Source of the DNA: a virus
Reading direction: 5' to 3' (one strand)
Virus record (IMG/VR): IMGVR_UViG_3300001472_000003
Span: 77,475-141,474 of that record
DNA: 64,000 nucleotides
Both the position numbers and the translations under genes were made by a program. Below are positions 1 to 10,382 of this stretch, one piece after another (the first letter of the stretch is position 1; the number at the start of each line of letters is the position of its first letter). The notes below the pieces were generated by a model. It was given only the letters and a program-made list of their open reading frames with translations. It was not told the origin of the DNA and did not search any database.

Positions 1-402
1 AGAAATCATAACATAGTCTATCCAATCTGCACTTATGGCATGATGGAAGCCATAAATTAAATCATCAAGATCACCTACCATACATTGAGGTGCATACATA
101 ATTTTAAATCCCATTCCTTTAAAAACCTTACCTAATTTCATAGATGCTTCTATTGTTTCCATTGTGTCATATGAAGGGTAGTTAGGCAATATTATACAAT
201 TGGCTTTTAATTTATTACATAACGTAATTAAATTGCCAAAGTCATCTACACCTTCAGAATTTAAAATAATCTCATAATTATTTTTATCAATAAAATAATT
301 TAAATATTTTTCATTTGATAAATGATTGGCATACACCATTTGTATTTTATTTTCATCAATAATAGGTAAAAGGTGTAATGGGGCTGTATGTATGAATTTC
401 AT
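1..402 (-). CDS. DpdA-like (TGT-fold) paralog, partial, cut by window edge
   Basis: Open reading frame from an ATG at 402, one base after the stop of the amidotransferase gene, running in frame off the left edge (134 residues visible). I recognise it only by comparing it with the DpdA gene at 2010-2813. ILNSEGVDDFG (residues 46-56) falls where DpdA has ILDNSCFELG, CIILPNYPSYD (69-79) where DpdA has IFVLPDVLGD, and YAPQCMVGDLDDL (103-115) where DpdA has AVIQGNTPDEF, with similar spacing. If the alignment holds, both acidic residues of DpdA (Asp59, Asp90) are Asn here, while the Gln is kept. That suggests a non-catalytic partner or a changed substrate, as in heterodimeric eukaryotic TGT. It is the last visible gene of the early operon. 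The function is inference; the C-terminal region that would carry the nucleophile is outside the window. Confidence 0.45.
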   Translation of the reverse strand, partial: MKFIHTAPLHLLPIIDENKIQMVYANHLSNEKYLNYFIDKNNYEIILNSEGVDDFGNLITLCNKLKANCIILPNYPSYDTMETIEASMKLGKVFKGMGFKIMYAPQCMVGDLDDLIYGFHHAISADWIDYVMIS

Positions 403-403
403 T

Positions 404-1030
404 TTACTCACCAAAATAATATGGATTCTCAACTGTATTAAAATCAGAATCTTCTTTGTTAATTACGTTTTTATTTTCTATATCTAATTTAAAAATACGA
501 TTAGCATCAATAGAATAACAATTTTTAAACATAGTAGAGGATATATTCATATCGCCATCAATAAATAATGGACTTATTTCATTTCTAAATATATTGATAT
601 TATGTTTATAATACCATACACAACTAAAAGATCCATCGATATTATTAGGTGTTTTTAATTCAATTAATTGCTTTAATAATAATTTAGTATCCCATGAATA
701 ATCAACATTATATAATGATTGTAATCTTTTAATTTCATATTCTTTTATTATACCATTATGCCATAACAATTGTCCTCCTATATCAGCAGGATGAATATTA
801 TCATTATAATTGTCAGCTGTAGGTGCTTGTTGATGTACAATACAATAATGATTATCTGGTATTGTTATGCAATCATAGGGTAATGGGCCTAATCCTGTCT
901 TAACCTCTCTTAGTAATGATGATGTATTATTAATATAAGTTATACTATGAGAGTAAGTACCTCTATATTCATTTAATTTAGCCAATTCAATTATTTTATC
1001 TGAGGAATATGATCCTACAATACTACACAT
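404..1030 (-). CDS. Class II glutamine amidotransferase (stand-alone Gat partner of QueC)
   Basis: 208 residues starting Met-Cys, with Cys2 as the expected N-terminal nucleophile of Ntn-type glutamine amidotransferases. Further family marks are an RGTYSHS stretch near residue 23, LWHNGII (glutamine-site Asn-Gly), GSFSCVW and RNEISPLF (the usual R-(D/N)-x-x-P-L element). It hydrolyses glutamine to release ammonia. The start has a GGGAGA ribosome site, and the gene overlaps the end of queC by 8 bp. Known context: in Crenarchaeota and in phage 9g a Gat domain is tied to QueC, and the product is archaeosine (G+). Here the Gat is a separate small protein with no synthetase domain, so ammonia transfer to a QueC/preQ0-linked step is the natural inference. 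A generic asparagine-synthase fragment is the alternative, but the neighbours argue against it. Confidence 0.8.
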   Translation of the reverse strand: MCSIVGSYSSDKIIELAKLNEYRGTYSHSITYINNTSSLLREVKTGLGPLPYDCITIPDNHYCIVHQQAPTADNYNDNIHPADIGGQLLWHNGIIKEYEIKRLQSLYNVDYSWDTKLLLKQLIELKTPNNIDGSFSCVWYYKHNINIFRNEISPLFIDGDMNISSTMFKNCYSIDANRIFKLDIENKNVINKEDSDFNTVENPYYFGE

Positions 1031-1778
1031 TAATCATTTTCTCCCATGGTATATGTATTTGATATGGTATTGGGTCCTTCATACCTGCTTTTGCAAAACC
1101 AGCTATTCTTTCAGCACATGAAGGACATACACTACATGATGACCCGAATTCATTCGGATTATAACATGTAAGTGTAGATTCAAGTAAATATGTACTATTC
1201 ATTTCTTTACATATTTCTATTTCTTGTGCTTTAGATAAAAGGCTAAACGGTGCCATTATTTCTACTTTATGTGTTCTATTTTGAATAGCTACAGCATTCA
1301 ATGAGTCAACAAATTTTTGTGATGTATCCCAATATCCATATTCATCATGTACTTGAAGGCCAGTAAAAAGGTATGAAGCATTAGAAGCTTCTGCTTGTGC
1401 CATAGTAAGACTTAGTAATATTAAATTACGAAATGGCACATAAGTCTTTGGTTGTGGATCTCCTAACACATCTTTAATAGTCGGCATTGCTACATTGCTA
1501 CCTGATATATTAGCTGATATAGGTTCAGCAATTTCTCCTAGTATACTGAGATCTAGAATCTTATGTCCTATGCCTAGTAACTCACAAAGTTTAGAAGCTT
1601 TAGTAAGTTCTATACTTTGTTTTTGTCCATAATTATATGATAATGCATATACATTTTCTTTACCATATCTTTCAACAAGCATCATAGTCATAATAGAAGA
1701 ATCTAATCCGCCTGATAATACAGCCAATACATTTTTATTTGTATCCGGCAACTTACTGAGTGCTTCTTTTAAATTCAT
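1023..1778 (-). CDS. queC: QueC, 7-cyano-7-deazaguanine (preQ0) synthase
   Basis: 251 residues, normal QueC length. The PP-loop ATP-pyrophosphatase motif SGGLDSS is at residues 22-28 and a C-terminal zinc site is formed by Cys205, Cys215, Cys218 and Cys221. The family converts 7-carboxy-7-deazaguanine to preQ0 with ATP and ammonia. The ATG at 1778 has an AAGGAA site eight bases upstream and overlaps the end of the DUF3310 gene by 4 bp. With folE, queD and queE at 6095-8131 it completes the route from GTP to preQ0. The gene lies between dpdA and the amidotransferase, so the product is most likely destined for DNA and not for tRNA. Confidence 0.95.
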   Translation of the reverse strand: MNLKEALSKLPDTNKNVLAVLSGGLDSSIMTMMLVERYGKENVYALSYNYGQKQSIELTKASKLCELLGIGHKILDLSILGEIAEPISANISGSNVAMPTIKDVLGDPQPKTYVPFRNLILLSLTMAQAEASNASYLFTGLQVHDEYGYWDTSQKFVDSLNAVAIQNRTHKVEIMAPFSLLSKAQEIEICKEMNSTYLLESTLTCYNPNEFGSSCSVCPSCAERIAGFAKAGMKDPIPYQIHIPWEKMINV

Positions 1779-2020
1779 TTTGATTCCTTAAGCTTAATTA
1801 ATCTTTCTTTTTCTCTTTGACAATACCATGCTGCTTTGTCTAGATCTTCTATTTCTTTATCAATTAAATCATATCCAATTTCTTCTTTACGTCCAGATCT
1901 TAACAAATACTTAATTGCATTACCTTTAGAAAAATTTAAATTAAAATACTCAATAATATCTATTACCTCATATCCAGCAATAGACTTATAATGATTAGGA
2001 TTAATTTTGTTATCTACCAT
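1775..2020 (-). CDS. DUF3310 small protein
   Basis: 81 residues from MVDNKINPNHYK. The N-terminal NPNHYK, then a helix with EVIDIIEYF, NAIKYLLRSGRK and a final DLDKAAWYCQRE, are the hallmarks of DUF3310, a small phage family often annotated as nucleotide-kinase-like but without a proven activity. An upstream extension to 2044 is possible, but the ATG at 2020 is preceded by a clear AAGGAG site, so I prefer it. That ribosome site lies within the last codons of dpdA, so the two genes overlap by 11 bp. Its place inside the modification operon may be incidental, because the family is common in phage early regions. Confidence 0.8.
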   Translation of the reverse strand: MVDNKINPNHYKSIAGYEVIDIIEYFNLNFSKGNAIKYLLRSGRKEEIGYDLIDKEIEDLDKAAWYCQREKERLIKLKESK

Positions 2021-2813
2021 TTTTAACAAGCTCCTTAAATACATCTACATTATACATTATACTATCAATATTGATTTTAGTCAACGGCAAATCAGCAAAA
2101 TTATCAAATTTAATTTTAGGTTTTTCAAATACTCCTGCTGATGTATATCTATTACCCTCAATGGCTGCAGCTATAGGATTAGATGTATCAACAGAATATA
2201 TCCAATTGTACTTATGATAAAATTTAAATTCTAATGCAGCCCATGTTCCTAGAAGGTGATGTAATGTATCTTTATTAATATGTCTCTCTAATTTATCTAT
2301 AAGTTTTACTCTTTCTAGTGCATGTTCTACAGGTGTTAAATTATTTTCAAATGCCCAATTAAAGCAAAATGGAATACCTATCATAGGCAAATGAGGAAAT
2401 TCATTATCATATGCTTTATAACATTCTATAAATTCATCAGGCGTATTTCCTTGAATAACAGCCATAGCTTTTGATTCAAGATGCGGATACATCTCCAGAA
2501 ATTCTCTTGTTCTTTTTAAAGTGGTTTGCATATCTCCAAGCACATCAGGCAATACAAATATCTGAGGATTAATTATATTTACATATTTTACAATAAGATC
2601 ATTTGATAATGCTTTACCTAATTCAAAACAAGAGTTGTCTAATATTGTAAATTGTTTATTCAATACATATTGATCTACAATATCTCTATATCTTTCATCA
2701 TTTATATAACGATGTAATAATATAAAGTTGTAATCATTTATTTTATAGTCACCTACTAACTCAGCTTCGGCTAGTGAGTGTGGTATCTCGTGGGATATTA
2801 TTGGTGTATTCAT
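2010..2813 (-). CDS. dpdA: DpdA, 7-deazaguanine DNA transglycosylase (TGT paralog)
   Basis: 267 residues. DpdA is the DNA-acting relative of tRNA-guanine transglycosylase and exchanges guanine for a 7-deazaguanine base. TGT-like elements occur in order: LDNSCFE at 58-64 (position of the TGT DSGGFQ base-binding motif), VLPDVLGD at 87-94 (position of the FDE motif), VIQG at 119-122 (VQG), LLGTW at 187-191 (MGVG-like) and SVDTSNP at 207-213, whose Asp209 is the likely nucleophile. It is shorter than tRNA TGT and has no C-terminal zinc-binding cysteine cluster, as expected for DpdA. An ATG at 2813 is preferred over a GTG at 2819. Its first 53 bases lie inside the 3' end of denV. Neighbouring queC and Gat genes support the DNA-modification role. 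Confidence 0.85.
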   Translation of the reverse strand: MNTPIISHEIPHSLAEAELVGDYKINDYNFILLHRYINDERYRDIVDQYVLNKQFTILDNSCFELGKALSNDLIVKYVNIINPQIFVLPDVLGDMQTTLKRTREFLEMYPHLESKAMAVIQGNTPDEFIECYKAYDNEFPHLPMIGIPFCFNWAFENNLTPVEHALERVKLIDKLERHINKDTLHHLLGTWAALEFKFYHKYNWIYSVDTSNPIAAAIEGNRYTSAGVFEKPKIKFDNFADLPLTKINIDSIMYNVDVFKELVKNGR

Positions 2814-3261
2814 AATCACTTATTCCATAATGTTTAATATTTTTAAAAAATACTTCTTTATCTTTATATAGCTGAGGTTTTTGAATTATACGCTCCGCTA
2901 TTCTATCAATAGCTATTTTATAGTCTCTGGGTGTTGGTATATATTCACACCAAAGTTCCTTTGTATATGCGCAGTATATGCGGTTTAAATGATGTTTAAA
3001 CCGCTCTACGTTAGTATTTATATCTCTTGAAATCATATTTTCATATAACAATTTATACCTATCATATACATATTTTCCTTTATTATAAAAGAATTTACAA
3101 TGACCACCATTCAATGTATATCTATCAGGTATATCATCCATCGCCACATTATTATCAATTCTGCGTTGAATAAGATGTAAAAACTGTGTCAGCTCTTTAT
3201 ACTCCGCTACTAAATGTACTCTAGTTAGATGTCCAGGTTCTATTAAATTTAACCTAGTCAT
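2761..3261 (-). CDS. denV: DenV-like pyrimidine-dimer DNA glycosylase/AP lyase
   Basis: 166 residues beginning MTRLNL. T4 endonuclease V begins MTRINL, and the catalytic Thr2 (alpha-amino nucleophile), Arg3, His16 and Glu23 (AEYKEL) are at identical positions. GGHCKFFYNKGK matches the T4 GAGHVTFFYDK segment, and DYKIAIDRIAERIIQKP matches the later helix. The enzyme cuts cyclobutane pyrimidine dimers, useful for a phage of sunlit water. T4 DenV has 138 residues. Here about 22 extra C-terminal residues follow the last recognisable helix, and most of that tail is coded over the start of dpdA. The start codon overlaps the stop of the upstream gene (ATGA), so translation is probably coupled. Confidence 0.9.
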   Translation of the reverse strand: MTRLNLIEPGHLTRVHLVAEYKELTQFLHLIQRRIDNNVAMDDIPDRYTLNGGHCKFFYNKGKYVYDRYKLLYENMISRDINTNVERFKHHLNRIYCAYTKELWCEYIPTPRDYKIAIDRIAERIIQKPQLYKDKEVFFKNIKHYGISDYEYTNNIPRDTTLTSRS

Positions 3262-3665
3262 TTTATTTTTAAAGCTTGTCTTAATTTATCCATAAAATCT
3301 ATATGTGCTTTAGGTGTTGTCTTATATTGAAATCCATATTTTCTTTTAGAAAGATCTTTATAAACCTTCATTAAATCGTCATGATTAACTTTTGTTAAAT
3401 CATTATCAACATCTTGTGTTGCGCCATATTTATTTTTATTCATTTCAATACCAGTTACTGCATCAACAAATTTTTGTCTTTTATCATCTTTATATGCAAC
3501 TCCAGTCATTTTTAACCAATTATGTACTCTACCATAATTATGAATATTTTTATTCTTATTTAAATAATTTATTACATATTTAATTTTAGCATCAATGTCC
3601 TTTATTGACCTTACATGTGTTCTTACGATTTGCCATCTTATATTAAATTTATTTGCAGTAGCCAT
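3258..3665 (-). CDS. Conserved-type hypothetical protein, WQIVR family
   Basis: 135 residues, basic, mostly helical, no recognised domain. It starts with a good AGGAGA ribosome site and ends in a 4-bp ATGA overlap with denV. Its N-terminus (RWQIVRTHVRS followed by an Asn-rich helix and a V-N-W-L/V-V-T-G-type stretch) resembles that of the 112-residue protein at 4850-5188 (EWQIVRKSL). The two may be distant paralogs within one early operon. Function unknown. Small basic early proteins of T4-like phages often act on the host, but nothing in the sequence shows that here. Confidence 0.7.
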   Translation of the reverse strand: MATANKFNIRWQIVRTHVRSIKDIDAKIKYVINYLNKNKNIHNYGRVHNWLKMTGVAYKDDKRQKFVDAVTGIEMNKNKYGATQDVDNDLTKVNHDDLMKVYKDLSKRKYGFQYKTTPKAHIDFMDKLRQALKIK

Positions 3666-3674
3666 TTAATTCTC

Positions 3675-4199
3675 CTACCATACACTTAAATTAGTTTTTG
3701 CAAATGATGGCAAATTATTAATTTTTAGTATATCACCATATGTATCAGAAATCAACATATTTTTATTTTCGGTTATCCAATTTTGCATCATTTTTTTATT
3801 ATACATAACATACAAATCACCTTTAGGACCTACATGAAAAATGTGTGTGTTTATTTTTCTTAAATCCCAAAAATTATCTTTTATAGTAATGTACCAATAC
3901 TTTTGATATTTATTATAATAAAGACCAGAACGGCCACCTTTTACATCGACAGTCCATGTGCGCTTACCCATTATAGTTAAATCAATACCAATTAATTGTT
4001 GTACAACATCTTCTGAGTGATCTATAATTTTATTAACACCGTCAACATTTTTATATATTAATTTAATCGCAGCTTCTTCACCACGAGTACCCACAGAGCC
4101 ATAAGTTCCATGCTTATCAGTAATACTTTGTTTAAATGTTGGCCATAATTTTTTCACTAGTGTAGCATCATATGCTACTTTATATATACTTAAATCCAT
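3675..4199 (-). CDS. PD-(D/E)XK nuclease-like protein
   Basis: 174 residues from the ATG at 4199; a GTG three codons earlier is a weaker option. A helix with GTRGEEAAIKLIY (Glu41/Glu42) is followed by IGIDLTI (Asp73) and TWTVDVKGG (Asp85, Lys87). The order E...D...D-x-K on two adjacent strands is the PD-(D/E)XK nuclease signature, and the sequence ends in a small helical/beta C-terminus. I cannot name the subfamily. It could be a Holliday-junction or very-short-patch-like nuclease, or an endonuclease against host DNA. It is in the same operon as dpdA, denV and queC, so one possibility is that it discriminates against unmodified DNA; this is speculation. ATG follows the upstream stop by one base. 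Confidence 0.6.
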   Translation of the reverse strand: MDLSIYKVAYDATLVKKLWPTFKQSITDKHGTYGSVGTRGEEAAIKLIYKNVDGVNKIIDHSEDVVQQLIGIDLTIMGKRTWTVDVKGGRSGLYYNKYQKYWYITIKDNFWDLRKINTHIFHVGPKGDLYVMYNKKMMQNWITENKNMLISDTYGDILKINNLPSFAKTNLSVW

Positions 4200-4200
4200 A

Positions 4201-4650
4201 CTATTCACTTATATTATTATCAATTAACCACTTTACGTTTGAATCCCAATCGTCTTTAAACTTATTATATTTCTCTAGCTCTATAAGTCTTTTCTTTTGT
4301 CTATAATTGTGTGATCCTGGTTTGGATTTCATACTCCAAAACGATTTACGATCTGGTCTTGGAAGATTAGCATCAGGATCTAACTTGCGTCCATATAATT
4401 TTGCTATAGTCTCCGGTGAGTGAAATCTTCCTTCTATAGACCAAGGTTCATGTTTAGGATCTTTCTTTACTCTAATATCATGATTCATTACAAATTTTGT
4501 ATCACCATTATCAGATTGCAATCCTATACTATATCTATTAATTCCTTTTCTAGATGTTGTTGTCACTGTCCATAATTTGCCCGTAGGATCTTTTAATTTT
4601 ATATCTTTTAAAACTTGTCCTGCATCATTCTTCAAAGGAACATAAACCAT
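4201..4650 (-). CDS. Hypothetical protein, 149 aa
   Basis: 149 residues, basic, not recognised. The N-terminal half reads like a small beta-barrel (KDPTGKLWTVTTTSRKGINRY, then SIGLQSDNGDTKFVM). The C-terminal half is rich in Lys/Arg/Pro and ends in a helix with Trp residues (FKDDWDSNVKWLID). Its start codon shares a base with the stop of the 66-residue gene upstream, so it belongs to the same tightly packed early operon. The sequence does not indicate a function. Confidence 0.65.
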   Translation of the reverse strand: MVYVPLKNDAGQVLKDIKLKDPTGKLWTVTTTSRKGINRYSIGLQSDNGDTKFVMNHDIRVKKDPKHEPWSIEGRFHSPETIAKLYGRKLDPDANLPRPDRKSFWSMKSKPGSHNYRQKKRLIELEKYNKFKDDWDSNVKWLIDNNISE

Positions 4651-4850
4651 TATTTACCTGCTTTTCTTCTTCCTGCTGCTGCTTTAGCATCAAATTTAGC
4701 TTTACCCATTCTCTTACGACCTGCTGCAGCTGCTATAGCGCCAGCATCCTTATAACTTACACCTGAGCTTTTAGCTATCTTTTTTACAAAGACAGATTTA
4801 CCAGATGCATCCTTAGGACCTTCATCTATATACTCTTTATACGATTTCAT
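4650..4850 (-). CDS. Small basic Lys/Ala-rich protein
   Basis: 66 residues with a net positive charge. After an acidic start it has an Ala-rich core (AGAIAAAAGRKRMGKAKF) and ends AAAGRRKAGK. Similar short proteins with an AAAGRKRxGKAKF core are common in marine T4-like phages, and I recall no demonstrated role. Charge and composition would suit nucleic-acid binding, but this is inference. The gene abuts both neighbours (one-base overlaps), so expression is coupled. Confidence 0.65.
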   Translation of the reverse strand: MKSYKEYIDEGPKDASGKSVFVKKIAKSSGVSYKDAGAIAAAAGRKRMGKAKFDAKAAAGRRKAGK

Positions 4851-5188
4851 TAGATACTCCCTATTTTATATCTTGGATCATTGTAATCAATATCCTCATC
4901 TAACATTTTTCTCCAAACAATACGAACATCCTTCCTTAAAGAATCCGTCTCTGCTTGACCTTTAGTATGACCAACTCTATGCACAGACCCAGTTAATACA
5001 TTTACTAGTCTTCTAATAGCTATTGGACTATCTTTATATTTATTAAAATATTTTCTTAATGTATTAACATTCTCTATATGGTTATTTTTCCAATTACCAA
5101 TAAGCGATTTTCTGACTATCTGCCATTCTGGATCATCGACAACTTTTTTAATATTCATAGCCTTAATAATTTTTGCATCTTCAATCAT
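4850..5188 (-). CDS. Hypothetical protein, WQIVR family, 112 aa
   Basis: 112 residues, helical and basic. EWQIVRKSLIGNW is near residue 21, followed by an Asn-rich helix and IRRLVNVLTGSV. This layout is similar to the 135-residue protein at 3258-3665, which suggests duplication and divergence. No enzymatic motif is visible. It lies in the early operon with 1-bp spacing to its downstream neighbour and 9 bp to its upstream neighbour. Confidence 0.65.
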   Translation of the reverse strand: MIEDAKIIKAMNIKKVVDDPEWQIVRKSLIGNWKNNHIENVNTLRKYFNKYKDSPIAIRRLVNVLTGSVHRVGHTKGQAETDSLRKDVRIVWRKMLDEDIDYNDPRYKIGSI

Positions 5189-5197
5189 AATAACCCC

Positions 5198-5428
5198 TTA
5201 TATATATCTATCAGCTAGTTCCAACATTTCTTCGTTTACTGCTTCATGCATAGCCATAGGATTATTATTCATTAATTCTGAGAGCTGATCATCATTTAAA
5301 GCTTTATTATTAAATTTAAAACGAGCCGCACTGATATAGGCATCACAAAAATCTGGATAATCTTTCATATCAATATTTTCTATTTCAACATTATCAACTT
5401 CTATTCCATTTAATTCAAATTTATACAT
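5198..5428 (-). CDS. Small acidic hypothetical protein
   Basis: About 76 residues from MYKFELNG, acidic, with clustered Asp/Glu and a C-terminal helix (MHEAVNEEMLELADRY). An upstream ATG at 5440 is in frame, but the GAGG ribosome-site-like sequence lies between the two, so the inner ATG at 5428 is favoured. No domain recognised. It is the second gene after the early-type promoter at 6033-6061. Confidence 0.55.
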   Translation of the reverse strand: MYKFELNGIEVDNVEIENIDMKDYPDFCDAYISAARFKFNNKALNDDQLSELMNNNPMAMHEAVNEEMLELADRYI

Positions 5429-5482
5429 CATATACCTCATTAATTAATTTATTATAATAATATTATATTACAGATTACTATA

Positions 5483-6001
5483 TTAAGCAACCTGTAATTG
5501 CATTACATTATCAAATTCTTTTATATAAGAAGAAGGTAGATTAAAATGATATGTAGCGTAACTACCACCATATGGAAGATTGTGGTCATCAAATTCTTCG
5601 ACCATCCATCTTAATGCTGTCTCTCGATCGCCAGCACCTGCAGATATAATGTTTTGAACATTGCGCTCAAAGTCATCAACATTGCGTTGAGTCTGTTTAG
5701 TCTCTTCTTCGAATTGTTGTTGAGCTAGAGAACTAAACTCTTTTATTTCTTTAGCTATATCCGCAGCTGGCATATCCCAGATACCCATACCACGAGCAAA
5801 GCTTTTGCTGTATACATGAGCTACAGTCTCATACAACATATTTCTATCATCATCTAATTTAAGATCTTCAGCGGTGTATATACCTTTATCGGCCCAATAA
5901 GAAAGATCTTCTGAATACATTCCTGTCCAACGACTTGGACCCGCATTAACCCATTCTTGCTTTTTCTTATTTTCGCTTTTGATATAATCTAATAATGTCA
6001 T
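5483..6001 (-). CDS. Hypothetical protein, first gene of early operon
   Basis: 172 residues, soluble, helix-rich and acidic. It contains WVNAGPSRWTGMYSEDLSYW, a central coiled-coil-like segment (about residues 90-115) and a C-terminal LPYGGSYATYHF stretch. I believe relatives occur in marine T4-like phages but know no function. It is the first gene after a near-consensus sigma70-type promoter (TTGACA, 17 bp, TATTAT), so it is probably transcribed immediately after infection. The strong position suggests a host-takeover role; that is inference. Confidence 0.65.
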   Translation of the reverse strand: MTLLDYIKSENKKKQEWVNAGPSRWTGMYSEDLSYWADKGIYTAEDLKLDDDRNMLYETVAHVYSKSFARGMGIWDMPAADIAKEIKEFSSLAQQQFEEETKQTQRNVDDFERNVQNIISAGAGDRETALRWMVEEFDDHNLPYGGSYATYHFNLPSSYIKEFDNVMQLQVA

Positions 6002-6032
6002 AATGTATTTCCCTTTATCTTTATTATAATTA

Positions 6033-6061
6033 ATAATACTATATTAAAAGATAAATGTCAA
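6033..6061 (-). promoter_or_regulatory. Sigma70-type early promoter for the 6001-1 operon
   Basis: On the minus strand TTGACA (6061-6056) and TATTAT (6038-6033) are separated by exactly 17 bp, about 30 bp before the ATG at 6001. It sits in the only sizeable gap of this region (6002-6094), which also holds A/T tracts. The -35 flank, TGACATTTATC, is nearly repeated at the uvsY promoter (TGACATTTACC), which supports a shared early-promoter class. Confidence 0.7.
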
Positions 6062-6094
6062 CACTTTTTTTATGAAAAAAACACTTTTTTTTAT

Positions 6095-6760
6095 TTAATT
6101 GATAATATTTGTAACTTCTTTGCGAAGACCGCTACTAGGTTCACCAAATGCACCTAAACAACAAGCAGTTACTGTTGTGCTATTTGTATCTTTAATACCT
6201 CTTTGTGAAACACATGTATGTCCTGCATCAACAACAACCATTACATCCTGTGACTCTGTAATAAAGGCTATAGCTTGTGCTATCTGTTGTGTCAATCTTT
6301 CTTGTACTTGTGGTCTTTGAGCAAAGTATTGTGTGATACGATTAAGTTTAGATAAACCTAATACTTTTTTCTTAGGAATATAAGCTATATGTGCTTTACC
6401 TATTATAGGTCTAAGATGATGCTCACAATCAGAATAAAGAGTAATATTTTTTTCTAATACAAATTCTTCTCCAATAGAAAACTTATTTTCAACCGTAGTA
6501 CATTTAGGAAATGTATCATTTCTTAATCCACTGAAGATTTCGTCAACATACATTTTAGCTACTCTTAATGGTGTCTCTTCTAATGAATCATCAGAAAGAT
6601 CAAGCCCAAGTACTTCTAACATTTCTTTTGTTAATTTTGTTATTTTGTTTATTTTTTCTTCTCTATTAGCTGCTACTTTAGATGTAACAGGAGTATTAAT
6701 GCCCATTGAAGTTAAATGATCATTGACAGCAATACCCAATTCTAAATTATTTTTTGACAT
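6095..6760 (-). CDS. folE: FolE, GTP cyclohydrolase I
   Basis: 221 residues, usual length. It converts GTP to 7,8-dihydroneopterin triphosphate, the first step towards tetrahydropterins and 7-deazaguanines. Zinc ligands Cys112 and His115 (CEHH) and Cys183 (HTCVSQRG) are present, as are the LGLSKLNRI and QERLTQQIA segments. It starts at 6760 with an AGAGGA site. It follows queD on the minus strand by 20 bp and, with queE, forms a compact queE-queD-folE transcription unit that feeds queC and dpdA at 1-2813. A folate role is possible, but the neighbours make the preQ0 pathway more likely. Confidence 0.95.
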   Translation of the reverse strand: MSKNNLELGIAVNDHLTSMGINTPVTSKVAANREEKINKITKLTKEMLEVLGLDLSDDSLEETPLRVAKMYVDEIFSGLRNDTFPKCTTVENKFSIGEEFVLEKNITLYSDCEHHLRPIIGKAHIAYIPKKKVLGLSKLNRITQYFAQRPQVQERLTQQIAQAIAFITESQDVMVVVDAGHTCVSQRGIKDTNSTTVTACCLGAFGEPSSGLRKEVTNIIN

Positions 6761-6780
6761 ATATTAATTCCTCTTTTACA

Positions 6781-7233
6781 CTATTTATCTTTTTTAACTA
6801 TAGCACTATTAGCCCCATGCTCGGCACATTCAACACTTTCAACCCAACATCTTCCATCAGTTAAATCTCTAATTAAGTCATCAGCATAATTAAAAGCATG
6901 CTCTGCAAATTTTTCAACTCCAACTCCATCAAATATTACAATCTCGCACAATCCATTATTTTCTAATTCATAAAAATGTTTAATCTGTGGATCCTTTCTA
7001 TCTAATACCATTTTATGATCAAAATTATCTTGTAGCCATTCTTTTAAAGGTTTTAATCCTCCAAAGTCCGCTACCCAATTTTTATTATCTAGACTACTAC
7101 ATCCAAATGTAAATGTAAATGCCAAAGCATAACCATGTAGGAAAGAACAATGTGAGTGTGATGCATTAGGTTGTCTAAATACAACGCTCAAGCCAGTCTC
7201 ATGACCATATTTTTTAGTTGATAAGTAAATCAA
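6781..7233 (-). CDS. queD: QueD, 6-carboxy-tetrahydropterin synthase
   Basis: 150 residues of the PTPS/QueD fold. SHSHCSFLHGYAL (residues 25-37) contains the catalytic Cys29 and zinc-binding His33. The usual second histidine of the HGH motif is Tyr35 here, as in a subset of PTPS-like proteins. ADFGGLK, FDHKMVL (His73) and VECAEHG (Glu135, His139) complete the active-site set. The start codon is TTG at 7233: a stop lies immediately upstream in frame and an AGGAG site is correctly spaced. It makes 6-carboxy-5,6,7,8-tetrahydropterin from the FolE product. The gene starts one base after the queE stop and is followed by folE. Confidence 0.92.
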   Translation of the reverse strand: MIYLSTKKYGHETGLSVVFRQPNASHSHCSFLHGYALAFTFTFGCSSLDNKNWVADFGGLKPLKEWLQDNFDHKMVLDRKDPQIKHFYELENNGLCEIVIFDGVGVEKFAEHAFNYADDLIRDLTDGRCWVESVECAEHGANSAIVKKDK

Positions 7234-7234
7234 A

Positions 7235-8131
7235 TTAAACTCCTATTAAATTGCCAAATAGATATGTATGCACTCTTGCAGCAACATTATATCCTCTTTT
7301 AAATGCCTCGTGGGCTACGTCAGCATCCAATATCTTTTGTCCTTCTACTGTAGCACCCACTGGCATAACCCAAACTGGATATAATACACCAAGTGCTCTG
7401 CAGTTATCTATAACATCTTCCATCTCTCGCCACGATTCTTTACTTCCATTAATAACAAATTTTATTTGTCCTTCATTAGACAATTTATAATATTGTGATA
7501 TAATATCTGGTCTAATTGATTTCTCAGCTTTTTCACCGGATACAGAAAATAATTTAGGCGATATAGAAAAGAATACTTCATTAAGCCTATCTCTTTGCCA
7601 TGTTTGGAAAAAATCCATAAAATCATTACTTAATAATTGTGTGCCATTTGTCTCATATGTTACTGATAAAGGTTCATCTTTTTGTTCTATAAATTCTTGT
7701 AATAGTTCTACTGATGCTAATTGTGCATGCTTCATAAGAGGTTCACCACCAGTAAAACACATATGTTGATTAGTATATCCAAAATTAAATAGTCCTTTAG
7801 GATTTTTATTACTAATCATACTTTCTCTTATTTTTGTAGCAATTTGTTCAATTGTTCCTTTACGCTGCAAATCCTTAAATTTTTTAGCCCAAGAATAAGA
7901 TGAATCACACCCATATTCAAATACTGGCAAATCTTCCATATGATCATAATCTTCTACATTAATCTCTGTATATGGAAGTTTATATGATTTAGGATCTGTA
8001 GGGTCATCTTGCCCGAAACCATTACATTGTAAATTGCATAAGAAGAATCTTAGCCACGATGTAGGAACTCCAGTATATTGTCCCTCTCCTTGAATAGAAT
8101 GAAATATTTCTGAATACAAATATTCTTTCAT
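7235..8131 (-). CDS. queE: QueE, 7-carboxy-7-deazaguanine synthase (radical SAM, expanded cluster loop)
   Basis: 298 residues, longer than typical QueE (about 210-240). It opens YSEIFHSIQGEGQYTGVP, the QueE N-terminus. The radical-SAM cysteines are Cys32 and Cys36 (LCNLQC), but the residue expected to be the third Cys is Phe39. The canonical CDxxYSW element appears only at Cys75, so the motif is CX3CX38C. The glycine-rich SAM motif FTGGEPL follows. The enzyme rearranges carboxytetrahydropterin to 7-carboxy-7-deazaguanine. The AAGGAG ribosome site lies in the last codons of the deformylase-like gene, with a 1-bp overlap. The identification is firm; the loop is the odd feature. Confidence 0.92.
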   Translation of the reverse strand: MKEYLYSEIFHSIQGEGQYTGVPTSWLRFFLCNLQCNGFGQDDPTDPKSYKLPYTEINVEDYDHMEDLPVFEYGCDSSYSWAKKFKDLQRKGTIEQIATKIRESMISNKNPKGLFNFGYTNQHMCFTGGEPLMKHAQLASVELLQEFIEQKDEPLSVTYETNGTQLLSNDFMDFFQTWQRDRLNEVFFSISPKLFSVSGEKAEKSIRPDIISQYYKLSNEGQIKFVINGSKESWREMEDVIDNCRALGVLYPVWVMPVGATVEGQKILDADVAHEAFKRGYNVAARVHTYLFGNLIGV

Positions 8132-8670
8132 TATGTCATCTCCTTCATTGAATTTATTTGATTTTCCCTAATAATATCTATTATACTATAATTTTTATTT
8201 TTAGTCCACCTTTTTATTGCGGCTTCTTTATGGAATCTATTAGCTCTTTTAAAAAAAGTTATACCTTCAATAAGATCATGTTGTTGCTGAAATACTCTAG
8301 CACTCATACCTGTAAATTTTTCTACATTAAAATTACCTGCAGGATCTTGAAATCTGACACGTATGTGTTTTGGTCTTTTAATTTTCATTATTATACCTGG
8401 ATGGGATAAACATGTCTCATCCAACACAATTAATTCATCTGATGATGATGTGATGATAGGATTAAAACATACAAATTTAGGATCTGTATTAAGAACAAAT
8501 ACTTTATATGGCAATCCTATTTGATTAGCAGATACACCATTACCTTCAAAATGTATAAGATTTTTAACTAACATATTGGCTAATTCTTTTGGATCTATTT
8601 GAGGCTCTTTAAAATTAAAAATATTAGTAGGATGACTTAGTAATTCATTATATTTAGCTAATTTTATCAT
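8131..8670 (-). CDS. Peptide deformylase homolog with degenerate active site
   Basis: 179 residues with the PDF fold motifs in order. Motif 1 is GNGVSANQIGL (43-53; family GxGxAAxQ). Motif 2 is DETCLSHPG (84-92; family EGCLS, zinc ligand Cys87). At the expected place of motif 3 (QHExDHLxG) the protein reads FQQQHDLIEG (127-136). Without gaps, HExDH becomes QQHDL, so two zinc histidines and the catalytic Glu are missing. Active PDF removes the formyl group from nascent N-termini, and marine phages often carry one. This copy may be inactive, may use the shifted His131, or may have a binding role. It overlaps gp46 by 4 bp (ATGA) and queE by 1 bp. Confidence 0.8.
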   Translation of the reverse strand: MIKLAKYNELLSHPTNIFNFKEPQIDPKELANMLVKNLIHFEGNGVSANQIGLPYKVFVLNTDPKFVCFNPIITSSSDELIVLDETCLSHPGIIMKIKRPKHIRVRFQDPAGNFNVEKFTGMSARVFQQQHDLIEGITFFKRANRFHKEAAIKRWTKNKNYSIIDIIRENQINSMKEMT

Positions 8671-10382
8671 GCCGCAATCCTCGAGAAATTTTTAATTTTT
8701 TCAAATTTAATAACATTATGAAATTTATCAAATAATGCATCACCTTTATGGCTTATAATAAATAGGTTTGTATCAGCAGTTAAATCATTTATTATTTTAA
8801 GAAATTCTTCAGTGCCACTATTGTCTAAAGATGAATCGAACACTTCATCCATCAATAATAAATTGGTACTTATACTATTTTTTATCTTAGCAATAGCTCT
8901 CCATGTAAATAATAATGCTAGGTCTATCCTCATCTTTTCACCTTCTGAAAACGAATCATAAGAAAAATCATCTCTATATCTAGATCGAATTTTTTCATTA
9001 AAATTTTCATCGAGCTCAAATTTAACAAAGAAATCCATTGCTGCTAAATACTTGTTAACAAGTTTATTAATAATAGGAACATATTGTTTAATAATTCTAG
9101 ACTTAATGCCAGAGTCTCTTAATATTTTAGATGCAGAATCAAGTAATATTTTTTTATCTATAAGATTATTTTTTTCTGTTCTTAAAAGTCCTAATTCTTT
9201 TTTTAATTCTTTAAGTGTTTTTTCCGCTGTATTATCTTCTTTAAGTTTACTTTTAATTGTATTATTGTCATTTTGAAATTCTTCGATTAGTCTATTACAC
9301 GCATTTATAGTAGATTGTATATTACTATACTCTCGTTGTTTATTATCTACTTGTTTAATAACATCTAACATTTCATTCATTGTTTTGTTAGTATTATTGG
9401 TTTCATCTTTTAATAGAGTTAAACCATTCTTTGATTCATCTAATTTTTCTTGTTTAGATAATACATGAGAGCATTTAAATTCTTCATCTATATCTTGGTG
9501 ACAAGTTGGACAATTTTCATGATTATCAAAGAACGAAATTTCTTTTTCTAAATTGATAATATTTTGTTCTATTTTTGTTTCTATTTTTGTTAGTTGATTT
9601 ATTTTTGCTTCAATTTTAGTTTTATCTTTTATTTGTTCTTGTAATATATCGATAGATTCCATAATATTTTTTTGTTCTATATTATATAAAGATATATTAT
9701 TAGTATTCTCTTTAATCTTAATATTATTAGATTCAAGACGTTCATTATTATTATCCGATAATGATTTGATATGATTCTCTTGCAATGCAATTTTATCTTC
9801 AGATGAATTTATTTTATAATCATTCTCTAATGTGTCATCACGATGTTGTTGGCTTTTTGATTTTAATAAAATATTCATAGTAGAAAATACTTGCAAGTCT
9901 AAAAGGTCTTCTATTACCTCTCTTCTATTAGAAGATGATAGTTGCATAAATGGTGTAAATGATGCACTACCTAATACTACAATTTGTGAAAAAGATTTAT
10001 GATTTAATTTTAATATTTGATTGGTTAATAAATCTTGATAGTCTCTAATAGCTGCATCTTGATTTATCATTTTACCATTTTGATATACTTCAAATATTGT
10101 AGGTTTAATTCCTCTTTTAATTATATAATTATGTTTACCTACTGCAAATTCAACCACTACTAAAGCATCCCGCCCATTTATAGTATTAACTAATTGTGCT
10201 TTGGTTATTTTTCTAAAAGCTCTACCATATAATGCTAAAGACAGAGCATCTAATAATGTAGACTTTCCTGCGCCATTCTCACCTACTATTAGTGTAGATT
10301 TAGATTTAATCAAATTAACTTCAGTCCACGTATCCCCAGTAGATAAGAAATTTTTCCATTTTATATATTTAAATTTTATCAT
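8667..10382 (-). CDS. 46: gp46-like recombination endonuclease subunit (Rad50/SbcC type)
   Basis: 571 residues, close to T4 gp46 (560). It is an SMC-like ATPase with Walker A GENGAGKST at 34-42, long coiled-coil arms, a zinc-hook CPTC at 291-294, the ABC signature SFSEGEKMR and Walker B LLLMDEVFD near the C-terminus. With gp47 it resects DNA ends for recombination-dependent replication and helps degrade host DNA. The gene overlaps gp47 by 4 bp, the usual coupling of this pair. Confidence 0.95.
   Translation of the reverse strand: MIKFKYIKWKNFLSTGDTWTEVNLIKSKSTLIVGENGAGKSTLLDALSLALYGRAFRKITKAQLVNTINGRDALVVVEFAVGKHNYIIKRGIKPTIFEVYQNGKMINQDAAIRDYQDLLTNQILKLNHKSFSQIVVLGSASFTPFMQLSSSNRREVIEDLLDLQVFSTMNILLKSKSQQHRDDTLENDYKINSSEDKIALQENHIKSLSDNNNERLESNNIKIKENTNNISLYNIEQKNIMESIDILQEQIKDKTKIEAKINQLTKIETKIEQNIINLEKEISFFDNHENCPTCHQDIDEEFKCSHVLSKQEKLDESKNGLTLLKDETNNTNKTMNEMLDVIKQVDNKQREYSNIQSTINACNRLIEEFQNDNNTIKSKLKEDNTAEKTLKELKKELGLLRTEKNNLIDKKILLDSASKILRDSGIKSRIIKQYVPIINKLVNKYLAAMDFFVKFELDENFNEKIRSRYRDDFSYDSFSEGEKMRIDLALLFTWRAIAKIKNSISTNLLLMDEVFDSSLDNSGTEEFLKIINDLTADTNLFIISHKGDALFDKFHNVIKFEKIKNFSRIAA

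Follow-up and report, generated by a model that had tools for sequence, protein, structure and literature searches.

A preQ0-type 7-deazaguanine gene set and a remodelled second transglycosylase-fold protein in a T4-like phage

The window analysed here is a stretch of 64,000 nucleotides from the virus record IMGVR_UViG_3300001472_000003. It encodes a preQ0 gene set and a compact guanine transglycosylase (TGT) of the DpdA type, and a second TGT-fold protein with altered active-site motifs (P0001) lies across its left edge. Our model combines a deazaguanine pathway, an imported gene block and P0001 kept in a new role, and as a whole it is considered fairly probable. The model builds on the genes, their predicted folds and motifs, the mosaic, the divergence rate and the constraint between two strains, and from these it proposes a chemistry, a product and a role for P0001. 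The T4-like marine phage would exchange guanine in its DNA for a preQ0-level 7-deazaguanine. Such a swap is already known as a phage strategy; the remodelled twin transglycosylase is what is added here. The six pathway genes are as follows.

6095..6760, minus strand: FolE, GTP cyclohydrolase I (TIGR00063, E 5.7e-65, and PRK09347.1-1, both over cut-off)
6781..7233, minus strand: QueD, 6-carboxytetrahydropterin synthase, TTG start (phrog_2389, 8.5e-39; PF01242, 9e-13)
7235..8131, minus strand: QueE, 7-carboxy-7-deazaguanine synthase, radical SAM (phrog_2076, E 8.9e-51)
1023..1778, minus strand: QueC, preQ0 synthase with zinc motif (PF06508, E 5e-50, and TIGR00364, both over cut-off)
404..1030, minus strand: Gat, free-standing class II glutamine amidotransferase (phrog_12378, E 8.2e-43)
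2010..2813, minus strand: DpdA-like compact guanine transglycosylase, clade A (phrog_19058, E 9.5e-28)

The initial annotation had placed these genes in the same two loci, 404-2813 and 6095-8131, with recognisable motifs, and both points were borne out. The catalytic motifs that we take to be typical of their families were found in all six proteins. The one oddity is the HGY of QueD, where the QueD of Enterobacteria phage 9g has HGH; HGY occurs in 58 of the 67 QueD sequences compared. QueD was over the cut-off with PF01242 and below it with TIGR03367, and for QueE the Pfam and NCBIfam matches were both below cut-off. Cys32, Cys36 and Cys75 of QueE are near-invariant among 64 sequences, with an insertion preceding the third Cys. 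QueC contains SGGLDS and a CxxCxxC motif with a further Cys nine residues before it. The profile matches and motifs support the earlier claim of a complete FolE-QueD-QueE-QueC set for preQ0. FolE, QueD and QueE would yield carboxy-deazaguanine, and QueC would convert it to preQ0 with ammonia from glutamine, probably supplied by Gat. No QueF match over cut-off was found in the whole virus record.

The DpdA protein had no Pfam or NCBIfam match, and phrog_19058 is annotated as 'unknown function'. Its AlphaFold2 model (pLDDT 93) matched TGT enzymes in all of the best 50 PDB matches listed, with Z 17.1 and 3.2 A over 240 residues to the archaeosine TGT 1iq8_A, and Z 16.4 to the DpdA structure 7ui4. 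Asp59, Asp90 and Asp209 are each present in 83/83 clade A sequences. The enzyme would remove guanine through an aspartate-linked intermediate and insert the new base. The protein is not close to 9g DpdA; its assignment as a TGT-fold transglycosylase candidate with catalytic Asp residues was supported. Against the single 9g DpdA (DpdA1) sequence, the hhalign probability was 0.8% and the HMM score 0.8 bits; against the DpdA2 of Vibrio phage nt-1 the probability was 27%, over 29 columns only. An iterated DpdA2 search returned only the nt-1 and pf16 proteins. With a limit of E 1, PF01702 (TGT) matched nothing in the record, despite the two TGT folds, and profiles A3 and A4 found no match below E 0.4 among PDB sequences. 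When DpdA and P0001 were each searched as single sequences in IMG/VR, the sister contig L002 was the sole confirmed hit; wider relatives of both needed alignment-based searches.

The TGT alignment holds 159 sequences (161 before ORFs below 200 aa were left out), and 93 were kept in the midpoint-rooted tree after those more than 95% identical were removed. Clade A (43 tips, support 1.0) contains the window DpdA, CPT_0056 of Campylobacter phage CP220 (30.5% identity to the window DpdA, E 7e-24) and the DpdA of Flavobacterium phage immuto. The window DpdA falls among 23 tips (0.988), and CP220 and immuto among the other 20 (0.966). The CP220 and immuto group is presumably the 'DpdA3' of a 2023 paper. 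CP220 also has a zinc-type QueC and a QueD; unlike the window phage, it belongs to the sister branch, has neither Gat nor a second compact TGT, and keeps its QueC 46 kb away from its transglycosylase. An excerpt of PMC8306585 reports that 100% of dG in CP220 is replaced by dADG. The window DpdA shares this clade, though on its sister branch, and the phage may replace more of its guanine than the 'part' suggested earlier.

Which base is made depends on Gat. The protein had no Pfam or NCBIfam match, and phrog_12378 is likewise annotated as 'unknown function'. Cys2, HNG and Asp114, presumably the defining residues of class II glutaminases, are present. Cys2 and WHNG were found in 53/53 family members of at least 180 aa, a limit that excludes the Gat of loci L024 and L034. 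These two B-type loci contain a Cys-less Gat relic. Gat was present in 53 of 55 loci with a zinc-type QueC, the remaining two contigs ending at QueC, and in 0/11 loci with a QueC without the zinc motif, one of these cut by the contig end. The zinc-type QueC of CP220 has no Gat, and Gat is therefore not always required.

The initial annotation had likened Gat and QueC to the pair of 9g, a phage with dG+ DNA that shares FolE, QueD, QueE, QueC, Gat and a TGT-family DpdA. This likeness was not upheld: the 9g Gat is fused to QueC, whereas here Gat is a separate gene, and the Gat and DpdA of 9g belong to other subfamilies. The Gat HMM scored 0.0 bits against 9g Gat-QueC, and hhalign with this single sequence gave a probability of 35%; by these comparisons the window Gat and the Gat domain of 9g are only distant relatives. 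The same Gat family lies directly behind QueC in Vibrio phages nt-1 and 6E35.1a (KVP40 is similar). Unlike the window phage, both have a long DpdA2-type transglycosylase (nt-1, PMC6884629; 6E35.1a, by size and annotation), 6E35.1a also has QueF, and no compact TGT was found in either record.

It is quite possible that Gat and QueC act like the fused 9g protein, so that the DNA carries dG+ (2'-deoxyarchaeosine). The glutaminase motif (Cys2 in 53/53), the association with zinc-type QueC (53/55 loci) and a record without a QueF over cut-off that would draw off preQ0 are consistent with this. Moreover, DpdA with Gat-QueC of 9g yields dG+ in E. coli, and some dG+ occurs in nt-1 DNA (PMC6884629). 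However, apart from the remote kinship to the 9g domain, nt-1 DNA contains more dPreQ0 (232 per 10^6 nt) than dADG (72) or dG+ (44), all at trace level (PMC6884629). An excerpt of PMC12028318 gives 15% of dG as modified in 6E351A, with a mass that fits dPreQ1; this is presumably phage 6E35.1a, which carries QueC, QueF and a Gat of the window family. Gat and QueF also occur together in pf16, phage 2.275.O, L157 and L158, which would be odd if Gat consumed preQ0. Gat as proof of dG+ was dropped in view of nt-1 (mainly dPreQ0) and 6E35.1a (apparently dPreQ1). With Gat, a halt at preQ0 and a further step to the amidine (dG+) are considered about equally likely, each at somewhat less than even odds.

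The neighbouring genes indicate a mosaic origin, with loci assigned to the A or B clade by nearest relative.

4850..5188, minus strand: ORF4850, outermost gene of the A-type-like block (76% identity to L087)
3258..3665, minus strand: ORF3258, in the A-type-like block (75% to L087)
2761..3261, minus strand: pyrimidine-dimer glycosylase, DenV-like, overlapping dpdA (PF03013, 5.7e-9; phrog_1183, 5e-34)
1775..2020, minus strand: DUF3310 protein (PF11753, 1.8e-11)
1..402, minus strand: 5' part of P0001, TGT-fold (whole gene G000:C1:77079-77876, 265 aa)

Identities to contig L014 are 82% for gp46, 77% for QueD, 78% for Dcd, 95% for the phrog_1574 protein, 79% for the clamp and 88% for UvsX. ORF4850, ORF4201, ORF3258, DpdA, DUF3310 and QueC have no match in L014, and are 76%, 72%, 75%, 67%, 73% and 80% identical to those of contig L087. 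By these identities, DpdA, DUF3310 and QueC are like those of a different type of phage. P0001 descends from the lineage's own transglycosylase, with that of L014 as sister. The second half of the pathway, from ORF4850 to Gat, appears to have come, at least largely, from an A-type phage. Some genes blur the picture of an import: the identity of FolE is 37% to L014 and 53% to L095, that of QueE only 55% to L014, and that of Gat 37% with L087 and 48% with L102. DenV is 57% identical to L090 without a match in L087 or L014, and ORF3675, ORF5198 and ORF5483 have no match in any of the six contigs compared. The recipient lineage would already have had a B-type transglycosylase, with QueC and Gat absent as far as seen; neither was found in L014, which is a 34-kb fragment and so gives no proof of their absence.

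The gene run continues past the left window edge into P0001, of which only the first 402 bases are inside and which lay outside the view of the initial annotation. It begins one base behind gat, in the same orientation. The predicted model of the L002 copy (pLDDT 86, Z 16.5 to 1iq8_A), together with an ancestry shared with compact TGTs whose active sites are complete, places P0001 in the TGT superfamily. The DNSxFE motif is lost, and Asn74 replaces the second active-site Asp; among the 159 aligned sequences, loss of DN[S/G]xFE or Asn at the second Asp was seen only in P0001 and its L002 copy, with two rows gapped at each of the two places. Two broad alignments put D39-KNN-Y43-E44 opposite DNSxFE, which would spare one Asp; near-relative alignments put Asn48 there, and the B-only HMM a gap. 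The pLDDT of the L002 model averages only 67 over residues 41-50. Besides the nucleophile, a catalytic TGT has two active-site Asp residues, and P0001 does not retain both. The nucleophile Asp204 and its WDSS surroundings are retained, and some catalysis is therefore possible.

P0001 has diverged fast. It groups with L014 (support 0.994) on a branch of 1.36 versus 0.10 in the midpoint-rooted tree, and the two share 39% identity, versus 55-95% for most shared genes. Between the window and L002, it differs by 13 changes, 10 of them synonymous and 3 nonsynonymous (two strains; P = 1.5e-5 at the site-count expectation and 0.0025 at a lenient 0.65). Compared with the pool of 16 neighbouring genes, no looser constraint could be detected (Fisher P 0.38). 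These changes suggest that P0001 looks to be under constraint now. The two transglycosylase types occur together in 2/158 loci, from one species, and among 24 records searched whole only in this one (G000). A search for more P0001-like proteins returned only L002, L014 (as L167) and L168, the last being B-type with intact motifs. Among the matches listed, which covered few subscription papers, no title or abstract opening describes a further TGT in altered form next to the DpdA of a phage.

The best reading of this pattern is a repurposed, perhaps non-catalytic, transglycosylase beside a known pathway. The resident enzyme would have lost its base-exchange residues and diverged fast, yet was kept; because it diverged, was kept and looks conserved today, a new role is probable, the likeliest being that of a non-catalytic DpdA partner or of a helper that binds DNA. 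In the more specific form, the imported catalytic DpdA and the lineage's former enzyme would make up a two-subunit DNA guanine transglycosylase, which we regard as somewhat unlikely. It would be, equally tentatively, a phage counterpart of eukaryotic QTRT1/QTRT2 soon after its origin. In that pair, too, a catalytic TGT is joined by a TGT-fold protein whose active-site residues are altered, as described in an excerpt of PMC6165067; unlike it, P0001 keeps the nucleophile Asp, its pairing with DpdA is hypothetical and the origin would be independent.

Two other readings of P0001 were weighed. ArcS is a repurposed TGT relative, and P0001 could be an active enzyme with a putative new specificity, for instance one that acts on the modified base like an archaeosine synthase or a glycosylase. 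It could also be a binder like Cap10 of type IV CBASS, a remodelled TGT-family protein according to an excerpt of PMC11996544. The nucleophile Asp and WDSS, kept while other active-site residues changed, favour this unlikely reading. Slightly less likely is a functionless, decaying relic of the replaced transglycosylase. The lost motif, the long branch and the place at the border of the imported block would fit, and the Cys-less Gat of L024 and L034 is a comparable relic; however, the frame is open in two strains, only 3/13 changes are nonsynonymous, the gene is not measurably looser than its 16 pooled neighbours (Fisher P 0.38) and it begins directly behind gat on the same strand.

The last alternative concerns DpdA and its surroundings.

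6061-6033, minus strand: sigma70-like site, TTGACA-17-TATTAT, 11/12 consensus bases

This promoter-like site is present as had been claimed, but dpdA follows 3.2 kb further downstream, after eight other ORFs, and its start overlaps the end of the preceding gene. Promoter-like matches in 1-9000 number 63 versus a shuffle mean of 65.3, and the claim of an early promoter for dpdA is weak. The interpretation in the initial annotation is partly supported: it stands for the preQ0 gene set and the TGT-fold candidate, less so for a dG+ product and for a dpdA behind an early promoter. Of the 158 plus-strand compact TGT genes in the loci, 97 have DUF3310 as the nearest following gene of the listed families, at a distance of up to 1.5 kb, and both are fused in one protein of RHph_I1_18. 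For 17/158 the follower is a P-loop, kinase-like gene from the family of CP220 CPT_0057, to which the annotated thymidylate kinase of immuto belongs. These associations, the HD phosphohydrolase and CPT_0057 flanking the CP220 transglycosylase, and the 100% replacement given for CP220 (excerpt of PMC8306585) would fit an exchange at the nucleotide level before replication, with DpdA acting on dGMP together with a kinase, hence complete replacement. This is quite improbable, as the kinase activity of DUF3310 is suggested by PHROG names only and the loci are related rather than independent. DUF3310- and kinase-like genes are common in phages, and a 2023 paper reportedly argues for post-replication insertion of the modified base.

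These results suggest that a phage swapped one DNA-modification module for another and gained preQ0 synthesis, the displaced enzyme being kept in altered form. The nitrogen source and the enzyme substrate become testable through two pairings, zinc-type QueC with free-standing Gat and DUF3310 with compact TGT. If P0001 is indeed a partner of DpdA, it would be a small and recent case of the origin of a pseudo-enzyme subunit.

The virus record around the window is 149.5 kb long and appears to be that of a T4-like phage. Left of the window, the translations alone pointed to UvsX, clamp, clamp loader and RegA-like proteins; inside the window are DNA matches to capsid and portal genes of cyanophage and Pelagibacter phage. 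All genes of the 7-deazaguanine pathway proposed in the initial annotation were confirmed, all on the minus strand, in this reading-direction order:

minus strand: PDF
within 6095-8131, minus strand: QueE, QueD (6781-7233) and FolE
minus strand: seven ORFs, then a DenV-like gene
2010-2813, minus strand: DpdA, a compact TGT-fold guanine transglycosylase
1775-2020, minus strand: DUF3310
1023-1778, minus strand: QueC
404-1030, minus strand: Gat, a class II glutamine amidotransferase
across the left edge, minus strand: P0001, a second TGT-fold protein
beyond the edge: dCTP deaminase (Dcd), a protein assigned to phrog_1574 (function unknown), and clamp

The QueD reads HGY where that of phage 9g reads HGH, at what is presumably the zinc site; HGY is common to 58 of the 67 QueD sequences compared.

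The dpdA gene had been placed behind a sigma70-type promoter, in a transcription unit separate from FolE-QueD-QueE. Between the halves, the strongest promoter-like candidate on the minus strand is at 6061-6033, with eight ORFs between it and dpdA. Another site with 11 of 12 consensus bases falls within dpdA, and shuffled sequences contain promoter-like matches at least as often. Terminator-like matches number 4 (2.5 expected); one of them, on the minus strand (3935-3923), lies between the halves within an ORF. Separate transcription of the halves may thus occur.

IMG/VR searches yielded 72 and 80 loci, the second set being the best 80 of 429. The TGT proteins split into clades A and B in the tree. 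Clade A alone occurs in 81 of the 158 TGT loci (QueC seen in 64), and clade B alone in 75 (QueC in none, Gat-like genes in two). Both occur only in the window and its sister contig L002, whose copies of these proteins are about 99% identical to those of the window; the two were taken as the same species. In a search of 24 whole records, only the window's own contained both types (record coordinates: profile A3 at DpdA, 79493-80275; profile A4 at P0001, 77106-77879); in the other 23, where both profiles match, they match the same single place. Among the eight B-alone records searched whole, Gat was found in none and QueC was absent from seven; Vibrio phage D479 gave a partial, weak QueC match over the cut-off (32.8 bits). 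In four B-type records (behind L050, L058, L007 and L009), the stretch examined has TGT_B, FolE and either QueE or QueD, and the record as a whole gave no match to QueC or Gat; these phages may draw on preQ0 from the host, or insert a base formed at a step ahead of QueC.

The window DpdA gave no match in a Pfam search, and its link to the queuine transferase PHROG 887 is no more than weak (E 1.9e-4). Its structure model (pLDDT 93) matched TGT enzymes in all 50 PDB matches listed, with Z 17.1 against archaeosine TGT. Relatives in annotated phages at E 0.01 comprise 24 records (14 Campylobacter, 5 Bacillus, 4 Flavobacterium, 1 Chryseobacterium), and those of the Flavobacterium immuto phages are already annotated as DNA guanine transglycosylase. 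The CP220/immuto group was reportedly named DpdA3 in a later paper. In the tree, the window DpdA and CP220 share one 43-tip clade, each in a different half. In CP220 (L006:8865-11358), the compact DpdA homologue CPT_0056 is annotated as hypothetical and lies between an HD phosphohydrolase gene and a P-loop NTPase kinase-like gene. Campylobacter phages were placed among those without known DpdA (PMC6884629); all dG of CP220 is reported to be replaced by dADG (PMC8306585).

For 158 plus-strand TGT genes, the next listed family gene within 1.5 kb was DUF3310 in 97, the family of the P-loop, kinase-like CP220 protein CPT_0057 in 17, another family in 15 and none in 29. In Rhizobium phage RHph_I1_18, a clade B transglycosylase and DUF3310 form one protein (L007:10001-11269), annotated only as DUF3310. 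These neighbours and the fusion offer a lead, not evidence, towards base exchange at the nucleotide level.

The free-standing Gat family was found in 55 phage records at E 0.01 (49 Vibrio), including KVP40-type Vibrio phages and pf16; among 14 control genomes, its PHROG also matches one, that of Sulfolobus acidocaldarius. Gat is present in 53 of the 55 loci with zinc-type QueC and compact TGT, the two exceptions being contigs that stop at QueC, and in none of 11 loci with the other QueC type, one being cut at QueC. CP220 has a zinc-type QueC and no Gat. QueC and Gat are adjacent in both nt-1 and 6E35.1a. Traces of dPreQ0, dADG and dG+ were measured in nt-1 DNA, and nt-1 was credited with an ArcS (PMC6884629); for 6E351A, taken to be 6E35.1a, 15% of dG is modified, with the mass of dPreQ1 (PMC12028318). 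For the window phage, the proposed dG+ is about as likely a product as dPreQ0. Elsewhere, two Gat-like proteins (L034:6382-6861 and L024:2141-2617; dN/dS 0.18 between their genes) lack the catalytic Cys and have an altered HNG; they belong to B-type loci without QueC in the stretches examined. In L090 (11013-11819), L088, L089, L091 and L142, the QueC-like protein behind the relative of the window DpdA lacks the zinc Cys motif; the stretches examined contain no Gat, and two of them stop less than 0.4 kb from QueC.

The structure model of the L002 copy of P0001 (pLDDT 86) has TGT enzymes as its eight best PDB matches, followed by other TIM-barrel enzymes (Z 16.5 against archaeosine TGT). P0001 groups with the B-type relative L014 (support 0.994). 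Among 159 aligned TGT sequences, which are related and not independent, the DN[S/G]xFE motif is missing only in P0001, in its L002 copy and in two rows with gaps. Only P0001 and that copy have Asn in place of the second Asp, where two rows are gapped; all 159 retain the nucleophile Asp. Two broad alignments place D39 to E44 of P0001 opposite the first motif; the site holds Asn48 in near-relative alignments and a gap in the B-only HMM. QTRT2, the non-catalytic subunit in eukaryotes, has Cys at the equivalent first Asp and Glu at the nucleophile (PMC6165067). Between the window and L002, P0001 shows 10 synonymous and 3 nonsynonymous changes (141 and 20 in 16 other genes pooled). P0001, on a long branch (1.36 versus 0.10), thus went through rapid evolution earlier and seems to be under constraint today; it is probably a repurposed resident transglycosylase.

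The locus is a mosaic. The flanking genes that were compared with L014, a contig whose metagenome also yielded L002, show 55-95% identity to it, FolE (37%) being the exception; L014 has no match to any of the genes compared from ORF5483 through Gat. ORF4850, ORF4201, ORF3258, DpdA, DUF3310 and QueC are 67-80% identical to the A-type contig L087; Gat is 37% identical to L087 and nearer to L102 (48%). The gene order is TGT_B, DUF3310, Dcd in L014, and Gat followed by a Dcd-like gene in L087; in the window phage P0001 sits between Gat and Dcd, at the block junction. FolE (nearest to L095, 53%) and the DenV-like gene (nearest to L090, 57%) do not fit this pattern, and ORF5483, ORF5198 and ORF3675 have no match in the six contigs compared. 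The compact DpdA and free Gat were apparently imported largely as one block. The pathway itself is of a known kind; what is new is this combination beside an apparently repurposed resident transglycosylase.
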